Below are positions 55,039-63,082 of a DNA stretch of 64,000 nucleotides, piece after piece (position 1 is the first letter of the stretch; every line of letters starts with the position of its first letter). The notes under the pieces are model-generated. The model made no database searches. It worked only from the letters and a program-made list of their open reading frames with translations, and was not told the DNA's origin. The DNA comes from Paenibacillus tianjinensis (GTDB taxonomy: Bacteria; Bacillota; Bacilli; Paenibacillales; Paenibacillaceae), in assembly GCF_017086365.1 (NCBI RefSeq), contig NZ_CP070969.1, forward strand, positions 2,542,001 to 2,606,000. Reading direction: 5' to 3'. The position numbers were made by a program, and so were the translations under genes.

Positions 55039-56478
55039 TTGCCTGAACTCACTTCATCCTATGTAGATTCGTTAGCACCGAATGCCGCCTCTATTAAGAA
55101 CGGACAGGGGCTGGTACGTAAAAAAAGCTTCATCCAGCTTCACCGTACAGAGAACGGAGAGCTGCTATTCGGGCAATGTGCGGGAAGTGGGAAGACACCG
55201 TATGAATGCTCTGTAGATTTTGTAGCTCCGGAGAATCCTGTCTTCCGCTGTTCCTGCCCGAGCCGGCAATTTCCCTGCAAGCACACCCTGGGCCTGCTGT
55301 ATGCCTATGTGGAAGGCCAGCCCTTTACCCCGGCACAAGTTCCTGAGACGATCGCAGCCAAACGCGAAAAGGCGGAGAAACGGGAAGAGAATAAGGTGAA
55401 ACAGGCTGCCGAAGGCAGCGGGAGTAAACCGAAGAAAGTCAATAAATCAGCACTTAAGAAAAAAATATCAGCCCAGCTTGAAGGGCTGGCCCTACTGGAG
55501 AAGCTGGTGCTTTCATTGATCCGCGGCGGGTTATCTGCGATTGATGCCAAGACACTTAAGACCGTTCAGGAGCATGTGAAACAGCTGGGCAACTATTATT
55601 TGTCAGGTGCGCAGATTGAGCTGCGCCAGTTCGCGCTGCTGCTGGGGAAAGGGCAGGACCGTGAGCAGAGCTATACATATGCTGTGGAGCAATTGACACG
55701 GCTGCATGCCTTCATTAAGAAAGGCCGGAGTTACCTTACCGCAAGAAGCGAGGACCCGGAGCTTGCACCGGATGTTGAATCAACCATTGATGAATGGCTG
55801 GGTCACGCCTGGCAGCTGGCAGAACTGAAGGAGTACGGGCTTACAGAGGCAGATGTTGAACTGCTGCAGCTCGCCTTCTACAGCTATGATGATCAGGCAC
55901 GGCAGGAATTCGTCGATCTCGGGTACTGGCTCGACATGGCCGGCGGCAGGATCCACAAGACTGTACATTACCGTCCTTACAAAGCAGCCAAGCTGCTGCG
56001 GGAGGATGACAGCTTCTTTGATGTAGCCAAGATTCCGTTGCTCTACAAATATCCCGGAGAACTCAATGCACGGGTACGTTATGAAGAGATGACAGCAAGA
56101 CCGGTCATTCCGGCAGATCTGGCTCAGGTTCGGGTGCATGCACACCGCAGCTTTGCGGAAGCAATCAAGAGTGTGAAAAATCAGTTGAAGAATCCGCTCA
56201 GCGATAAGCAACCGGTTCTGCTTCTATATGCAGCAAGCCTTGGAGTGACAGAGAACGGCCAATATGTCATAACGGATGAAGCCGGCGGGCAGCTTGTGCT
56301 GGGGGATATTTCCTCACTGGCCCAGGGTACGCTCCAGCTGCTGCCATTCCTGCCTCCTGCCAGTCTCAAGGGCTGCTCGCTGCTGGTAATGTTTGAACAT
56401 GAACTGGACCAGGGCAAGCTGGTTGCCCAGCCGCTAAGCGTCATCACGGATGAGGGGATTACACGTCTTCTATACTAA
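55039..56478 (+). CDS. SWIM zinc finger family protein
   Basis: A 479-residue protein. The SWIM zinc finger is at residues 71-82 with pattern C-x-C-x6-C-x-H (FRCSCPSRQFPCKH). A charged, Lys/Glu-rich linker follows (residues 110-150), then a long helical region and a C-terminal beta-rich part. SWIM domains bind DNA or protein. The start is TTG at 55039 with CAGGAGGAATCTGA upstream. It opens a five-gene cluster with a HEAT-like protein, a MoxR ATPase, DUF5682 and a VWA protein, a set I recall from other bacteria. Biochemical role unknown. Confidence 0.88.
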   Translation: MPELTSSYVDSLAPNAASIKNGQGLVRKKSFIQLHRTENGELLFGQCAGSGKTPYECSVDFVAPENPVFRCSCPSRQFPCKHTLGLLYAYVEGQPFTPAQVPETIAAKREKAEKREENKVKQAAEGSGSKPKKVNKSALKKKISAQLEGLALLEKLVLSLIRGGLSAIDAKTLKTVQEHVKQLGNYYLSGAQIELRQFALLLGKGQDREQSYTYAVEQLTRLHAFIKKGRSYLTARSEDPELAPDVESTIDEWLGHAWQLAELKEYGLTEADVELLQLAFYSYDDQARQEFVDLGYWLDMAGGRIHKTVHYRPYKAAKLLREDDSFFDVAKIPLLYKYPGELNARVRYEEMTARPVIPADLAQVRVHAHRSFAEAIKSVKNQLKNPLSDKQPVLLLYAASLGVTENGQYVITDEAGGQLVLGDISSLAQGTLQLLPFLPPASLKGCSLLVMFEHELDQGKLVAQPLSVITDEGITRLLY

Positions 56479-56529
56479 GCAGACTTTATATATTAATTTT
56501 CGTATACCTTTGAGTAGGGGGGACTGCCC

Positions 56530-58374
56530 ATGAGTACATCGTTATTACAAGAGCTTCATCTGGAAGTCAGAAGGCTTTATATTGCCGGCAGCGACCTGGC
56601 GGCAGACGACTTCCGCCTGAAACGCCTGCTGCCGCAGTTTCAGCAGCTGGGTGAGCGGGCAGCTGTCTTTAAGCGGCTCGGCGAAGGCGTGGCGGCCCTT
56701 CTTAAGCAGGAGAGTGCGGGGGAGGCTGCTCCGGCGGTGAAGCTGCTGGAGCTGACCCTTCTGCTGGAGTCTGTGCTCTATACACAGGGCACTACATCAC
56801 CTGCCGGTATTCCAGACGAGCTGCCGCGCAGCAGCTTTACCCTTGAAACCAAAGTATCTTACCGTAAGCTGGCTGCGGTCCGGCAGGCGCTGACCACAAC
56901 GGGCGGCGGCAGATATGAGACGGTAGTAGAAGCGTTCAATGAGGGAATGTTTCAAGATTTGCGTCTGCTGCCGCTGGCTATCGGTGCCTTAGGTGACCCG
57001 TATGCCGAGATCGCTGAATTTGCCATGAAGCAGATTCTGCCCTCCTATGGCCCCGCAATCGCTGATTATCTCATGCGGGAATTCGATCCTTCCGGCGGGA
57101 AAAGCGATGTACGCAAGCTGCAGGTGATCGGAGAGACAGGCGGGCCGGAGCTGCTTCCTGAGATATTCAAGGCAGCTGAGAACGGCAGCGATGAGGTCCG
57201 TGCTGCTGCTATCGGATGTCTGGCCGGACACGGGGAGTACACGCCGTCATTACTGGAATGGACGAAGGATAAGAAGAAGCCGATCCGAGAAGCCGCCTAT
57301 GCAGCATTGGCGGCCGGCGGTTCGGCGGAGGGCAGGGAACGGCTGTTTGAGGCGTTTGCCGGTAAGAAGGACCGGGTACTGGCAGCAGAAGCAGTCGCGA
57401 AGTGGCCATCCGCACCGCTTGCGGAGCGGCTGTCAGTTCGGTTTATGGAGGAGCTTCAGGAAGCCTCACAGCAGGACAAAACCGACAAGAAAAAGAATGA
57501 GAACGTCTGGACCAGCATTGAGCCGTATTTAACTGCGCTTGAGGAAGCACGAAATCCACTGCTCGACGAATTATACAGCTTTGTGATACAGAATTATGAA
57601 ACATTTATCACTTTAGGATGGCTGCCTCTGCTGGATCAGGCAGCTTATTATGAGGAGAGAACTGCATCGGAACAGGGACTGGACCTTCTCAGGGAGCTGG
57701 AGCAGCGTAATTCGCGTTATTTGCCTCACTATTTCCGTGCGGCGCAGCAATTGCTGAGTGCGAAGGAGCTCTATAAGCTGTTCGGCGGAACGATGATGAG
57801 CAGGCTGAGATCAAAAATATCGAAAGAAGCGGCAAAGCGTGACCTTCAGCTGCTGGAAACGCTGGAGCGGCAGATTATAAACGCTGAAAGCGTTGTATAT
57901 GAGGTCCCCTGGGATTCCTCCAGAGACCGTCAGCAATTCTGGAGGGAAATGCTGTCTGCTGACAAGATTGCAGCAGCCTGGGACCCCCGCTGGCTCGACT
58001 GGTTCATTGAGCAGGACGCGCTGGATCTGGTGTGTGCCTTTGCCCGGCCGGATTCTGCAGACGCACGTAATTATCTGCTCGGCAAACTTCAGGAGCAGAG
58101 CGGTAAACGGAAAGGACACGATTTCATCCCCCATATTTTTATGGGGCTGGAGCGTGCAGGCATGGCAGAGCCGGAACGGCAGGAGCTTCTGATGTCCATC
58201 CTTGAGAAGGATAGACAGTATAACCCGTATATGATTCCTTATCATTTATTTGATTTAATGCTCCGTTTTCCTTCAAGCTACATTAGCCGGATCGAGGCTG
58301 TTGCACCTAATTTCCGCTATGAATGCAAAACACAGCTGGAATATCTGCTGAATCATCTGCAGAGACAGAAATAG
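56530..58374 (+). CDS. HEAT-repeat-like protein, second gene of the MoxR/VWA cluster
   Basis: A 614-residue soluble protein rich in paired amphipathic helices, including HEAT-like stretches such as ELLPEIFKAAENGSDEVRAA and RVLAAEAVAKWPSAPLAERL. No enzyme motif is visible, so a scaffold or adaptor role is likely. In comparable clusters I recall a DUF5691-type protein at this position, but I cannot confirm it here. GGGGGGACTGCCC precedes the ATG, 51 bases after the SWIM gene. The next gene starts 47 bases later on the same strand. Confidence 0.75.
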   Translation: MSTSLLQELHLEVRRLYIAGSDLAADDFRLKRLLPQFQQLGERAAVFKRLGEGVAALLKQESAGEAAPAVKLLELTLLLESVLYTQGTTSPAGIPDELPRSSFTLETKVSYRKLAAVRQALTTTGGGRYETVVEAFNEGMFQDLRLLPLAIGALGDPYAEIAEFAMKQILPSYGPAIADYLMREFDPSGGKSDVRKLQVIGETGGPELLPEIFKAAENGSDEVRAAAIGCLAGHGEYTPSLLEWTKDKKKPIREAAYAALAAGGSAEGRERLFEAFAGKKDRVLAAEAVAKWPSAPLAERLSVRFMEELQEASQQDKTDKKKNENVWTSIEPYLTALEEARNPLLDELYSFVIQNYETFITLGWLPLLDQAAYYEERTASEQGLDLLRELEQRNSRYLPHYFRAAQQLLSAKELYKLFGGTMMSRLRSKISKEAAKRDLQLLETLERQIINAESVVYEVPWDSSRDRQQFWREMLSADKIAAAWDPRWLDWFIEQDALDLVCAFARPDSADARNYLLGKLQEQSGKRKGHDFIPHIFMGLERAGMAEPERQELLMSILEKDRQYNPYMIPYHLFDLMLRFPSSYISRIEAVAPNFRYECKTQLEYLLNHLQRQK

Positions 58375-58421
58375 CGGACTTCGGAAATTGAATTCACGGT
58401 TTACACAAAGGAGAGGTGTAC

Positions 58422-59525
58422 ATGTCAACGGGACAAGAGCAGCTTCAGGACTATATGCGGCTGCCTGCAGAGGTTTTGTATCGGGAGGAGCTTGAAGCAC
58501 TGCGCAGGGAGGATAAGGGCAGAATTCCGGCAGGCTGGCAGATGTCGCCGCGTGCAGTATTCACATTCATCGCCGGAGGTAAGGCCGGAAGCAAGGTCAT
58601 TACCCCGAAATATATTGGCAACACGCGGCTGATCGAAATGGCCGTCGCTACACTGGTCACCGACCGGGCGCTGCTGCTGATCGGAGAACCGGGAACGGCT
58701 AAATCCTGGCTGTCCGAGAATCTGGCTGCGGCGATTTACGGTAACTCCGGGCTGGTGGTCCAGGGGACAGCCGGTACAAGTGAGGAGCATGTGCGCTACT
58801 CCTGGAACTACGCCATGCTGCTGGCGAACGGACCGACCCCGGAGGCGCTGGTCAAAAGCCCGATTATGCGGGCAATGGAGGACGGGGGCATCGCCCGGTT
58901 TGAAGAGATTTCCCGCTGTGCTTCCGAAGTGCAGGATGCGCTGATCTCCATTCTCTCGGAGAAGACGATCTCCGTGCCGGAACTAGGCAAGGAGGCCGGT
59001 GCCCGCAAAGGCTTCTCGATCATTGCCACAGCCAACACCAGAGACCGCGGGGTCAATGAAATGTCCGCTGCGCTGAAGCGGCGGTTCAATATCATCGTGC
59101 TGCCTGCACCTTCAGATATTGAAACAGAGCTGTCCATTGTCAAGAAACGGGTTGCTGAGATCGCTTCCTCATACGAGCTTCAGGCTGCCGTACCCGCGGA
59201 TGATGCCCTGCTCAAAGTAGTGACGATTTTCCGGGAACTGCGCAGCGGGATGACGCTCGACAAGAAAGAGAAGTTGAAGACGCCGGCCGGGGTAATTTCC
59301 ACCGCAGAGGCGATTTCCCTCTTGACCAATAGCATGGCGCTGGCCGCAAGCTTCGGCAGCGGTGAGCTGACCGACAGTGATCTTGCTGCCGGCCTCCAGG
59401 GGGCTATCGTCAAGGATGATGAAAAGGATAAGCTCGTCTGGAAGGAATATCTGGATAATGTCATGAAGAAAAAAGGAACGGAGTGGCGCGGCCTTTATCA
59501 GGCCTGTAAGGAGATGAACGAGTGA
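58422..59525 (+). CDS. MoxR-type AAA+ ATPase
   Basis: A 367-residue ATPase. Walker A is GEPGTAKS (residues 88-95), the Walker B position reads IARFEEISR (Glu-Glu rather than Asp-Glu), sensor 1 is TANTRD, and the arginine finger region is LKRRFN. Such MoxR proteins form hexamers and act with VWA-domain partners to remodel or activate target proteins. AAAGGAGAGGTGTAC precedes ATG 58422. DUF5682 begins in a GTGA overlap at its stop. The VWA gene of the same cluster is its likely partner. Confidence 0.9.
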   Translation: MSTGQEQLQDYMRLPAEVLYREELEALRREDKGRIPAGWQMSPRAVFTFIAGGKAGSKVITPKYIGNTRLIEMAVATLVTDRALLLIGEPGTAKSWLSENLAAAIYGNSGLVVQGTAGTSEEHVRYSWNYAMLLANGPTPEALVKSPIMRAMEDGGIARFEEISRCASEVQDALISILSEKTISVPELGKEAGARKGFSIIATANTRDRGVNEMSAALKRRFNIIVLPAPSDIETELSIVKKRVAEIASSYELQAAVPADDALLKVVTIFRELRSGMTLDKKEKLKTPAGVISTAEAISLLTNSMALAASFGSGELTDSDLAAGLQGAIVKDDEKDKLVWKEYLDNVMKKKGTEWRGLYQACKEMNE

Positions 59526-61867
59526 TTAAGGCTGCTGAAGCTGGAGTGCATATTTTCGGGGTGCGGCATCTGTCTCCCGGCGGCGCACAGCATCTGCTGG
59601 AATATCTGGATAAGCTTCAGCCTACGGCGGTGCTGATCGAAGGTCCCAGCGATGCAACGGGAGAGATTACACATCTGACCCAGGGGGCGACCAAACCGCC
59701 GGTAGCGATTCTGGCCTTTACTGATGAACTACCCGTACGGACGGTGCTCTGGCCGTTTGCCGTCTATTCTCCCGAATATCAGGCAATGAAATGGGCTAAG
59801 ACACACGGTGCTGCAGCTGCATTTATTGATCTGCCTTCTTCGGTAACGCTCGGTTTGCAGGATGCCATGACCCGGGGGAGAAGCGCTATTCGGGAAGCAG
59901 TGCCTGCTGCCGATCCATCGGGTGAACCCTCCACCGCCGAGGTTCAGGACGAAGAATCGCTGTACAGCCAGATCGCCCAGCTTGCCGGTGAATATGATTA
60001 TGATATGTACTGGGAACGTAACTTCGAGCATAATGCGAGTACCGGTGCCTATCTGACCTCCATCCTTTCCTTCTCTTCGCAGATGCGAGAGCTTGGTGAG
60101 GAGAAGGAGCTGCGGGAACAGCCGTCGGAATATGCCTATAATGCGCTGCGCGAAGCATATATGAGCCGGCAGATTCAGGCAACAATAGCAGCCGGACATG
60201 AGCCGGGCAAAATTGTAGTGATCTGCGGAGCTTATCATGCTTCTGCACTTGCCGGTCAGGCGGCCCCTATGAGTGACGATGATCTGGCAGCCCTGCCGTC
60301 CCGCAGTACCAAGCTGACGCTGATGCCCTATTCGTATTATAAGCTGTCTACAATGTCCGGCTATGGGGCTGGCAACGCCGCTCCGCATTACTTCGAAATG
60401 ATGTGGGAGACAATTGAAGCGGGGCGGCCGGAGGAACTGCCGCACCGCTACCTGTCCTCGGTGGCCAGCCATGTGCGCAGCGGCGGTACCTACCGTTCTA
60501 CTGCCGAAGTCATTGAGGCAGTCAGGCTGGCGGAGTCGCTGGCGGCGCTGCACGGCGGCAGCAGGCCAACTCTGCGGGATTTACGCGATGCCGCACAGAC
60601 ACTGCTCGGGCATGGCGATCTCGCGGCTATCGCGGAGCAGCTGGCGAGAGTGGATGTGGGTACAGCAATCGGTTCTCTCGCGGAAGGCGTCAGCCAGACA
60701 CCGATTCAGGATGATCTGAACCGGCTGCTGAAGACCTACAAGCTGGAGAAATACAAATCCACAGTTGCCAGCGAGCTTCAGCTTGACCTCCGGGAGAACC
60801 GCAGAGTATCAAGCAGTGAAGCCGCATATCTGGATCTGAACCGCTCGGTGCTGTTTCACCGGCTGAATCTGCTGGGAATAACCTTTGCTAAGAACCGGCC
60901 CAGCAGCCAGGACAGTGCCACCTGGGCGGAGCATTGGGTCATCCAGTGGTCGCCGGAGGTGGAAATCCAGGTCGTGGAATCCACACTGCTCGGCGAGACG
61001 GTAGAGGTGGCTGCAGCCTATGTGCTGCGCGAGAAGCTGCAGGAGTGCCGCTCCATAGCGGAAGCTTCGGCACTGATACGGATTGCCTGCCAATGTGCGA
61101 TGACAACGCAGATGGAGGAAGGCAGCCGGGTGCTGCAGAACCTGGCAGCTCTAAGCAGGGATGTCGTAGGCATGGCCGCAGCGGCCCGTGAGCTGTCAAC
61201 CATCCTAAGTTTCGGGGACATCCGCAAGGTCGATACCGTCCCGCTGATGCCCCTGCTGGAAGAGCTGTTCCGCCGCGGCTGCCTGTTCCTGCTGGATGCT
61301 AGCGGCTGCAACGATGAAGCGGCAGGGGCTATGCTTACAGCAATGAATGAGCTAAACGGGATATCCCTTGAGCATGGGGATACCCTGGATGAGAAGCAGT
61401 GGCTGCAGGAGCTGCTGCTGCTCTCGGAACGGGATGACCGCAATCCGCGGCTCTCCGGCTATGCCTGCGCTATACTGATGGAGCGGGGGGCTGTATCGGC
61501 CGGAGAGGTCGCTGCTGAGGTGTCGCGGCGGCTTTCGCCGGGTATCTCTGCTGACCTTGGAGCAGGGTGGTTCGAAGGGCTGTCGATGCGCGGACATTAC
61601 GGTCTCCTGTCGCGTATGAGTCTGTGGGAACAGCTTAACGACTACATCAATGCGCTCGATGATGATGAATTCAAGCGGGCGCTGGTCTTCCTGCGCCGTG
61701 CATTCAGCACCTTCACGCCGCGCGAGAAGATCATGATATCCGAGCTGCTGGGCGAGCTGTGGGGTGTGAACACCGAACAGGCTGCAGAGATTCTCACCGG
61801 CGAGCTGAAGGAGGAAGAAGCCAAAATGCTGGAGGAGCTGAATGATTTTGACTTCGGGGACTTTTAG
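59522..61867 (+). CDS. DUF5682 family protein, TraB/TIKI-like N-terminal domain (inferred)
   Basis: A 781-residue protein. Its N-terminal third has GVRH (13-16), Glu40 in VLIEGP, REAYMSRQI (about 210-217) and CGAYHAS (G236-H239). These match the order of the GxxH, Glu, R-x-x-x-M and second GxxH motifs of the TraB/PrgY/TIKI/EreA superfamily of metal-dependent hydrolases; that match is my reading, not a database result. The C-terminal 500 residues are helical with no motif I know. GTG at 59522 overlaps the MoxR stop, and the VWA ATG directly follows its own stop. Confidence 0.85.
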   Translation: MIKAAEAGVHIFGVRHLSPGGAQHLLEYLDKLQPTAVLIEGPSDATGEITHLTQGATKPPVAILAFTDELPVRTVLWPFAVYSPEYQAMKWAKTHGAAAAFIDLPSSVTLGLQDAMTRGRSAIREAVPAADPSGEPSTAEVQDEESLYSQIAQLAGEYDYDMYWERNFEHNASTGAYLTSILSFSSQMRELGEEKELREQPSEYAYNALREAYMSRQIQATIAAGHEPGKIVVICGAYHASALAGQAAPMSDDDLAALPSRSTKLTLMPYSYYKLSTMSGYGAGNAAPHYFEMMWETIEAGRPEELPHRYLSSVASHVRSGGTYRSTAEVIEAVRLAESLAALHGGSRPTLRDLRDAAQTLLGHGDLAAIAEQLARVDVGTAIGSLAEGVSQTPIQDDLNRLLKTYKLEKYKSTVASELQLDLRENRRVSSSEAAYLDLNRSVLFHRLNLLGITFAKNRPSSQDSATWAEHWVIQWSPEVEIQVVESTLLGETVEVAAAYVLREKLQECRSIAEASALIRIACQCAMTTQMEEGSRVLQNLAALSRDVVGMAAAARELSTILSFGDIRKVDTVPLMPLLEELFRRGCLFLLDASGCNDEAAGAMLTAMNELNGISLEHGDTLDEKQWLQELLLLSERDDRNPRLSGYACAILMERGAVSAGEVAAEVSRRLSPGISADLGAGWFEGLSMRGHYGLLSRMSLWEQLNDYINALDDDEFKRALVFLRRAFSTFTPREKIMISELLGELWGVNTEQAAEILTGELKEEEAKMLEELNDFDFGDF

Positions 61868-63082
61868 ATGACGAAAGAACATAAGCAGGAGAATACCCTG
61901 TCCCGCTGGCGGCTGATTCTCGGCCAGGAAGCGGATGCTGCACTGTCCGGCTACGGTGAAGGCGGACAGCTGATGCTGACGGAAGAGGAGAAGGTAATGG
62001 ATGCGGCCCTTGCTGCTATTTATGACGAGACAGGAACGGGCGGCGTCTCAGGAACGGCCGCAGGGAGTGCTAAGGGCAAGGGCTCAAGCACCGGGCACGG
62101 TGCACTGCACCTGTCCAAATGGCTGGGGGATGTGCGCAGCTTCTTCCCGGAGGATGTGGTATCGATCATTCAGAGCGATGCCATGGAGCGCCGGGGCTGG
62201 AAGCAGCTGCTGTTTGAGCCGGAGCTGCTGGCTGCAGTCAAACCGGATATTCAGCTCGTTGGAACGCTGCTTTCGCTGAAGGGCAAGATTCCGGAGAAGA
62301 CCAAGGATACCGCAAGAATGCTTGTTCAGGCGCTGGTAGACGATTTGGTCAAGCTGCTGGAGACGGACATCCGGCGGGCAATCACCGGAGCGCTGAACAA
62401 GCGGCAGCACTCACCGCTGCCATCGCTCAGCGGGCTGGACTGGAAGCTGACGATTCAGCGGAATCTGAAGCATTATGACCAGGAACGTCGGATCATCATC
62501 CCCGAGCGTTTCTATTATTTTGACCGCGCCCGGCGAAGTAAGGAGTGGACGGTAATTGTGGATATTGATCAAAGCGGCTCCATGGCCGATTCGGTCATTT
62601 GGGCATCGGTCATCGGCTCGATCTTTGCCAGCATCCCTGCCCTCAATACCCGCGTGGTCGTATTTGATACGGAAGTGGTGGATCTAACGGAGCAGTGTGC
62701 CAATGATCCGGTTGATATGCTGTTCGGCATTCAGCTGGGCGGCGGAACAGACATCCATAAATCAGTGAAATACTGTGAGCAGTTTATTGAAGAGCCGAAG
62801 AAGACGCTGTTTATTATCGTTTCAGACCTTTATGAAAACGGTAACCAGGCCGGACTGGTGCGGCGGATGCGTGAACTCCGGGAGTCCGGCGTTCGGACAA
62901 TGACCTTACTGGCATTATCGGACTCAGGGAAACCCTCCTATGATGAGCATCTGGCCAGGCAGCTGACGCGGGACGGAACGCCTTGTTTTGCCTGTACCCC
63001 GGCTCTGCTTCCGGCGCTTGTTGAAGGTGCGCTGAAAGGACAGGATCTTGGAGAACTGGCGAAACGGCTCGGAACCGCATAG
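61868..63082 (+). CDS. VWA domain-containing protein (CoxE-like), MoxR partner
   Basis: A 404-residue protein with a helical N-terminal 220 residues and a von Willebrand A domain at about 225-385. The MIDAS motif D-x-S-x-S is at Asp234-Ser238 (DIDQSGS), with LGGGTDIHKS (Thr) and IVSDLYENG (Asp) completing the metal site. A Gly/Ser/Lys-rich stretch lies near 58-80. VWA proteins beside MoxR ATPases present or receive clients of the ATPase. It starts directly after the DUF5682 stop, so the last three genes are translationally coupled. Confidence 0.9.
   Translation: MTKEHKQENTLSRWRLILGQEADAALSGYGEGGQLMLTEEEKVMDAALAAIYDETGTGGVSGTAAGSAKGKGSSTGHGALHLSKWLGDVRSFFPEDVVSIIQSDAMERRGWKQLLFEPELLAAVKPDIQLVGTLLSLKGKIPEKTKDTARMLVQALVDDLVKLLETDIRRAITGALNKRQHSPLPSLSGLDWKLTIQRNLKHYDQERRIIIPERFYYFDRARRSKEWTVIVDIDQSGSMADSVIWASVIGSIFASIPALNTRVVVFDTEVVDLTEQCANDPVDMLFGIQLGGGTDIHKSVKYCEQFIEEPKKTLFIIVSDLYENGNQAGLVRRMRELRESGVRTMTLLALSDSGKPSYDEHLARQLTRDGTPCFACTPALLPALVEGALKGQDLGELAKRLGTA

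Follow-up and report, generated by a model that had tools for sequence, protein, structure and literature searches.

The SWIM-HEAT-MoxR-DUF5682-VWA operon of Paenibacillus tianjinensis: a sister of E. coli yehLMPQ that may encode one MoxR-VWA machine with a probable TIKI-type hydrolase

The operon at 55039-63082 of the 64,000-nucleotide stretch of Paenibacillus tianjinensis DNA analysed here (the window; positions 2542001-2606000 of one 6.27-Mb contig) is, judged by sequence, a sister of E. coli yehL-yehM-yehP-yehQ, and its kind is already known. The initial annotation had called it an undescribed system, a description that has to be given up because of this kinship and because the YehL subfamily has been named in print. 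The five proteins may form one machine, the HEAT-lineage form of YehL-YehM-YehP-YehQ, in which a MoxR-VWA motor controls a TIKI-type DUF5682 hydrolase and a SWIM-OB protein and a solenoid recruit the trigger or target; we put this forward tentatively, at a little short of an even chance. The MoxR protein, of the YehL type, would form an ATPase ring, the VWA protein would be its peptide-holding partner, and the pair would use ATP to remodel or gate DUF5682. The SWIM-OB and HEAT proteins would bring the trigger or target, probably a nucleic acid or nucleoprotein, and DUF5682 would hydrolyse a peptide or ester bond of the target. Sequence shows the operon and its preservation as a unit, gene fusions among its relatives, and intact residues of the ATPase, the MIDAS, the zinc finger and the candidate active site; the folds of the DUF5682 and SWIM proteins are predicted.

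The operon consists of five open reading frames on the + strand. The first (55039..56478, 479 aa) encodes a SWIM zinc-finger protein (Pfam SWIM, E 1.1e-4, 22.1 bits against a cut-off of 19.6) and the second (56530..58374, 614 aa) a solenoid protein. They are followed by a MoxR AAA+ ATPase of the YehL subfamily (58416..59525, 369 aa; AAA_5, E 1.4e-37), the DUF5682 protein (59522..61867, 781 aa; DUF5682, E 1.1e-150) and a VWA protein of the CoxE/YehP type (61868..63082, 404 aa; VWA_CoxE, E 1.5e-47). The SWIM and HEAT genes are separated by 51 bp and the HEAT and MoxR genes by 41 bp, the MoxR and DUF5682 genes overlap by 4 bp (GTGA), and the VWA gene has a stop-adjacent start, 0 bp behind DUF5682. 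A tight one-strand operon was thus confirmed, and the ORF list and Pfam bore out the initial annotation both in its five closely spaced genes and in its joining of the last three. What had been described there as a helical adaptor could be refined to a HEAT-repeat protein (HEAT_2, E 2.8e-10). The MoxR gene may instead begin at an ATG two codons downstream of the listed GTG. Promoters and terminators were not clearly more numerous than in shuffled sequence (5 versus 4.8; 9 versus 7.6). The operon is flanked by a response-regulator-like gene, ending 314 bp before it, and a semialdehyde-dehydrogenase-like ORF, beginning 125 bp after it, both named by reading of the sequence. Among the 120 protein matches listed, relatives with a named source came from Paenibacillus, except one "Bacillota bacterium" bin and a few entries with bare names such as "hypothetical protein".

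The ATPase was much closer to E. coli YehL (43% identity, 267 bits) than to RavA (24 bits), and for this reason it was assigned to the YehL subfamily; the YehL-subfamily gene set with its VWA and DUF5682 partners was present in the window. Residue K96 was conserved in 129/131 sequences, and E163, E164, N207, R222 and R223 in 131/131; we take K96, E163/E164, N207 and R222/R223 to be the Walker A, Walker B, sensor and arginine-finger residues. The bpMoxR profile scored 28.1 bits on the ATPase (cut-off 27), covering just 51 of its 205 positions, and a sequence search of solved structures matched the ATPase to midasin (E about 6e-13). The VWA protein was 32% identical to YehP (209 bits), with intact MIDAS residues (D234, S236, S238 and D320 in 131/131 and T294 in 125/131). 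In this plain protein of 404 aa, Pfam found neither a second domain nor a propeller, and no solved structure resembled it by sequence at E <= 0.01. RavA-ViaA likewise combines a MoxR ATPase with a VWA partner, but the window VWA protein scored 25 bits there, about as low as the ATPase against RavA, and no DUF5682, SWIM or solenoid gene is annotated beside ravA-viaA; the window pair was not counted as a member. The available text of three papers names YehL as a MoxR subfamily (PMC3893208, PMC11834572, PMC11432383), and one of them gives YehL and RavA as the MoxR proteins of E. coli K-12 (PMC3893208). In the MoxR-vWA pairs described in the accessible part of PMC7159879, the vWA protein is considered to catch a peptide, and ATP to be used for remodelling of the bound protein.

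The likeness to E. coli extends to gene order. In MG1655, yehL (MoxR), yehM (DUF5682), yehP (VWA) and yehQ (SWIM) stand in a row, and yehF (WGR), the yehH pseudogene and yehI (DUF4132) lie upstream of yehL. MoxR, DUF5682 and VWA keep the same order as in the window with a SWIM-finger gene in the cluster, and the DUF5682 protein is 25% identical to YehM. In contrast, the SWIM gene of E. coli comes last and the similarity of YehQ to the window SWIM protein was not significant, DUF4132 and WGR proteins are found with no HEAT_2 gene seen, and E. coli falls in a clade separate from the window in both the DUF5682 and the MoxR trees. A function for yehLMPQ or the window set was not found in the open-licence papers searched, of which two contain two or more of the four yeh names, and DUF5682 was unnamed in the literature of this kind that was searched. 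A link of yehM to copper or biofilms was set aside as too thin, as the available text of PMC12409786 and PMC12114223 mentions the gene in lists alone.

The partners of DUF5682 proved constant across genomes. Scanning of genome_contigs with the DUF5682 alignment gave at least 566 confirmed relatives, of which the best 80 were analysed. Lachnospiraceae contributed 20 further regions, taken from 19 of the 21 genomes that matched among 200. Another 9 regions came from Gammaproteobacteria, 4 from Bacillota, 16 from Planctomycetota and 4 from Desulfobacterota, the last two groups having 19 and 6 matching genomes. The set was completed by 12 of 37 records of the plasmid collection (some chromosome-sized), one phage-labelled contig and E. 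coli, and the genes were labelled with profiles built from the window and its relatives. The order SWIM-HEAT-MoxR-DUF5682-VWA, with tandem HEAT copies collapsed, was found in 66 of the best 80 of the at least 566 relatives, more often than chance would give. The other 14, several of them short contigs, comprised five loci with no SWIM gene seen, four with neither SWIM nor HEAT, one with the SWIM and HEAT genes in reverse order, and four (L034, L050, L055, L069) with VWA or more missing.

MoxR lay directly upstream of DUF5682 in 129/132 loci with at least 1.2 kb of flank (scan 76/77, Lachnospiraceae 17/18, Gammaproteobacteria 6/6, Planctomycetota 14/14, Bacillota 3/3, plasmid 11/12, phage-labelled 1/1, E. 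coli 1/1), and VWA lay within 1.5 kb downstream in 126/136 (scan 75/79, Lachnospiraceae 19/20, Gammaproteobacteria 5/5, Planctomycetota 13/14, Bacillota 3/4, plasmid 9/12, phage-labelled 1/1, E. coli 1/1). These sums count two loci twice (L168 = L050, L169 = L010, equated by the length of the contig and the position on it) and omit six loci in which no ORF scored above 150 bits as DUF5682 (L166, L167, L211, L216-L218), as well as the distant case L215, which has a weak AAA+ match upstream and is without VWA. The three MoxR misses were an overlapping-frame artefact (L156), a MoxR gene 4.5 kb away (L121) and a locus where none was seen (L055). Among the ten VWA misses, three were fusions (L034, L153, L205), two had the VWA gene beyond a DUF4132 gene (L150, L154), two entries for the same contig had a TPR gene between (L050/L168), one had VWA 1.55 kb off (L119), and no VWA was seen in L055 and L069. 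MoxR, VWA, SWIM and a solenoid occurred together within 5 kb on both sides in 87/102 loci (by set, as listed, 58/61, 12/15, 1/2, 6/8, 3/3 and 6/12, and E. coli 1/1), where SWIM was counted from 25 bits, so that the SWIM calls of the DUF4132 lineage are weak. DUF5682 is thus seldom found without its MoxR and VWA partners, which is newly shown here; the opposite pattern, by which the initial annotation could have been refuted, was not seen in the survey, and its tie between an AAA+/VWA pair and a putative hydrolase gained support.

The same constancy would be expected if MoxR-VWA were a chaperone that matures or activates DUF5682 through a cofactor or metal, with any cutting being constitutive and the SWIM and HEAT proteins acting as assembly factors, as in RavA-ViaA and CoxD-CoxE. 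Known MoxR-vWA pairs do mature enzymes or insert cofactors, as far as the available text of PMC7159879 and PMC3893208 goes. When the neighbours of the scan loci were clustered, the families that recurred either flanked the operon locally in related species or were large ones scattered over mixed positions, and no further enzyme stood at a fixed place across lineages, clpS-clpA-aat in 8 loci being the nearest exception. The client would then have to be DUF5682 itself, but the solenoid and SWIM partners would be left unexplained, and we regard the chaperone role as unlikely, though a serious contender. Remodelling or gating of a DUF5682 hydrolase by MoxR-VWA, the preferred reading, would give these partners a part in recruitment.

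Trees of DUF5682 and of MoxR (124 loci) showed the same three clades, each with support of 0.97 to 1.0. They held 87 HEAT loci (with 6 or 5 more where no solenoid was seen), 10 DUF5691 loci (with 2 more) and 14 DUF4132 loci (with 5 more); L210, with no solenoid seen, fell outside all three in the MoxR tree. Six fused or overlapping loci were excluded from the trees by name and others for a missing gene. The MoxR tree joined the HEAT and DUF5691 clades at a node with support of 1.0, the DUF5682 tree at one with 0.45. The window belongs to the HEAT lineage and E. coli to the DUF4132 lineage, and the SWIM gene is usually first in the HEAT and DUF5691 lineages and mostly last in the DUF4132 lineage. 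Distances of the three core proteins correlated at 0.93-0.96, as expected of co-inheritance and equally of shared ancestry. The HEAT protein fills the solenoid slot in the window lineage, and a DUF5691 or DUF4132 protein does so in the remaining lineages. Profile comparison gave a probability of 79% over 70 columns for HEAT-DUF4132, 27% for HEAT-DUF5691 and 9% for DUF5691-DUF4132, values from which common descent of the three does not follow, and a single solenoid family was rejected.

Gene fusions pointed to two contacts within the set. DUF5682 and VWA formed a single ORF in L034 (Paenibacillus), L205 and L211 (Planctomycetota sample) and L153 (Streptomyces), and SWIM and DUF5691 did so in L147 (Hymenobacter), which argues for contact of VWA with DUF5682 and of SWIM with the solenoid. 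The four DUF5682-VWA fusions also strengthen the suggestion, made in the initial annotation, that DUF5682 itself is the client. Its other candidate, a DNA-bound SWIM protein, can be inferred from the fold only. In the SWIM protein the zinc-finger residues of the CxC...CxH motif were intact (C71, C73, C80, H82), and a ZSWIM8-like domain was predicted to be joined to a helical middle and tandem OB folds (~262-473), making the protein a possible nucleic-acid binder. It differs from ZSWIM8 (ZSWIM8-CUL3 complex, entry 9rwz) in that the rest of the protein is helical with predicted OB folds, and Pfam assigns none of the five window genes to the ubiquitin system.

The distribution of the family was uneven. 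DNA of yehLMPQ matched in 5301/5426 E. coli genomes, and in 5162 of them a single place covered 80% or more of the query; the family was present in 70/100 Paenibacillus genomes and in 8/299 of the Bacillota sample, the window phylum (5 above the family cut-off). At E <= 0.001, a limit that lets in weak distant matches, it was found in 21/200 Lachnospiraceae genomes and in 10/274 of the Gammaproteobacteria (8 above the cut-off), 19/149 of the Planctomycetota (18 above the cut-off) and 6/148 of the Desulfobacterota samples (five being short distant matches). The samples carry group names taken from the record titles of their central loci. Among 14 control genomes the family was found in E. coli and Deinobacterium. 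The five weak Desulfobacterota matches represent a distant relative, which adjoins a different MoxR-like AAA+ protein in the four regions analysed. Viral spread was rejected, as six peptide patterns gave zero matches in viral_contigs. A phage-labelled contig with MoxR-DUF5682-VWA (L158) is unannotated and marked unverified; it was included in the locus counts and was not accepted as a phage gene set.

Patchiness outside Paenibacillus and E. coli would suit an anti-invader system, in which MoxR-VWA fires the TIKI hydrolase once the SWIM-OB protein meets foreign nucleic acid, and so would the plasmid copies L151, L147 and L146, which lie beside restriction-modification, recombinase or toxin-antitoxin genes. 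MoxR-vWA ternary conflict systems have been described, with VMAP, iSTAND, FtsH or a beta-propeller as third partner and peptidase domains among the partners (PMC7159879, available text). The window set shares their MoxR and vWA core and a third conserved protein, but that protein is DUF5682, the set is not among the four ternary systems in the accessible part of that paper, and the system is near-universal in E. coli. Such near-universality, together with the 70/100 Paenibacillus genomes that carry the system, counts against a defence island. Related Paenibacillus also share the flanking genes, named by reading: histidine-kinase-like (13 loci) and desaturase-like (12 loci) genes upstream and a dehydrogenase-like gene downstream (8 loci). 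Defence by homology was rejected, as PADLOC (PADLOC-DB 2.0.0) called no system and matched the ATPase weakly (mad8, E 0.0017; PDC-M37B, E 0.058). An anti-invader role is therefore improbable on our reckoning, and a stress or quality-control role would fit the distribution better.

In the DUF5682 protein, the N-terminal part (~1-270) was predicted to be a TIKI/ChaN-like alpha/beta hydrolase domain and the C-terminal half a HEAT-like solenoid. The predicted N-domain showed the parallel-sheet core of the TIKI superfamily (ChaN, Ere esterases, Tiki), and the motifs of the ChaN family were matched by H16, E40 and H239, which supply a His-Glu pair and the second His; the guess of a hydrolase in the initial annotation gained from both. 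These three candidate catalytic residues were conserved in 139, 139 and 140 of 140 sequences, and R210, E211 and E169 in 140, 139 and 140. Unlike in that superfamily, one Glu of the 2His/2Glu set is missing, since the position two residues before the first His (position 14) was V/I in 69/70 and a gap in 1/70, and DUF5682 was for this reason filed under the TIKI superfamily fold and not as a canonical 2His/2Glu enzyme; it also differs in its long HEAT-like C-terminal half and in being encoded beside an AAA+ ATPase. No solved structure was similar by sequence at E <= 1, five weak structure matches of the DUF5682 profile (best E 0.033) were read as chance, and Foldseek with the whole model gave nothing at E <= 0.001. 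The missing Glu would be in keeping with a dead TIKI fold that acts as a scaffold or binds a ligand, as ChaN does with haem, and the available text of PMC6254334 describes PMT as a TIKI member without the 2His/2Glu set. However, polar clusters so strictly fixed are commoner among enzymes; a pseudo-enzyme seems quite improbable, and DUF5682 is probably a TIKI-type hydrolase.

In eight of the best 80 scan loci, all from Lachnospiraceae, clpS, then clpA, then aat followed the VWA gene, with aat seen in seven and the contig of the eighth (L078) stopping before it. The gap from VWA to clpS was 0 to 107 bp, and an overlap in L074 came from the choice of ORF start. Each of the eight genomes had one ClpS match. 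Seven of the loci were in the tree and fell in one nine-leaf clade with 87-100% identical DUF5682, in which L077 and L081 were without the link, so that the link looks like one event. No clpS was seen beside the DUF5682 set in the 20 further Lachnospiraceae regions, four of which were short contigs (L117, L118, L125, L130), with little sequence behind VWA in the last three. ClpS was found in 15/31 DUF5682 genomes searched and was absent from the window genome; with 8/80 loci from one clade, it was rejected as a general partner. Regulated proteolysis, in which a nucleic-acid-sensing SWIM-OB protein and the solenoid present a target that MoxR-VWA drives into a DUF5682 protease, and products with new N-termini pass to Aat, ClpS and ClpA for N-degron degradation in one Lachnospiraceae clade, is very improbable, and we know of no MoxR-driven protease and of no protease that makes N-degrons and is encoded together with the pathway degrading its products.

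New here are the constancy of the partners, the fold predictions for DUF5682 and SWIM, the three solenoid lineages, the fusions and the clpS-clpA-aat link of Lachnospiraceae. Nearly every E. coli genome in the collection carries this system, for which the open-licence papers searched offered no function. The probable TIKI-type DUF5682 with its named candidate residues and the possible nucleic-acid-binding SWIM protein make its biochemistry testable. If the proposed machine is real, a hydrolase would be added to the clients of MoxR-VWA pairs, and a TIKI-fold protein would be placed within an ATP-driven bacterial machine.

The MoxR ATPase of the window (369 aa; 58416..59525, forward strand) contained a Walker-B-like stretch at residues 161-167 that reads RFEE, and both of its glutamates were invariant across the aligned MoxR relatives (131/131). 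The more usual form of Walker B is hydrophobic-D-E, which is replaced by RFEE in this protein.

DUF5682 and VWA were encoded by a single open reading frame at the related loci of Paenibacillus (L034), Streptomyces (L153) and a Planctomycetota sample (L205 and L211), as were SWIM and DUF5691 in Hymenobacter (L147). In a Clostridia bin, DUF5682 and VWA were separated by the gene for a TPR protein of 569 aa that matched SUFU weakly (L050, 2486-4195, and L168, probably the same locus).

Directly behind VWA, clpS and clpA were found in a single Lachnospiraceae clade (L068, L071-L075, L078, and L089), with aat also downstream in seven of these loci. Tandem HEAT genes were present upstream, three each in L071 and L073 and two each in L074, L075, and L089.

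On an Iodobacter plasmid (L151), type I restriction-modification genes adjoined the DUF4132-type set. MoxR-DUF5682-VWA was also observed on a 14-kb contig labelled as phage (L158, MT835988.1), whose record is unannotated and marked unverified; this contig may be bacterial DNA.

Four Desulfobacterota regions (L215-L218), in which no VWA was seen, encoded a MoxR-like AAA+ protein of a different kind, followed directly by a remote DUF5682 relative (608-721 aa) whose likeness was best over approximately the first 120 residues. This arrangement is possibly a fourth, simpler form of the system.
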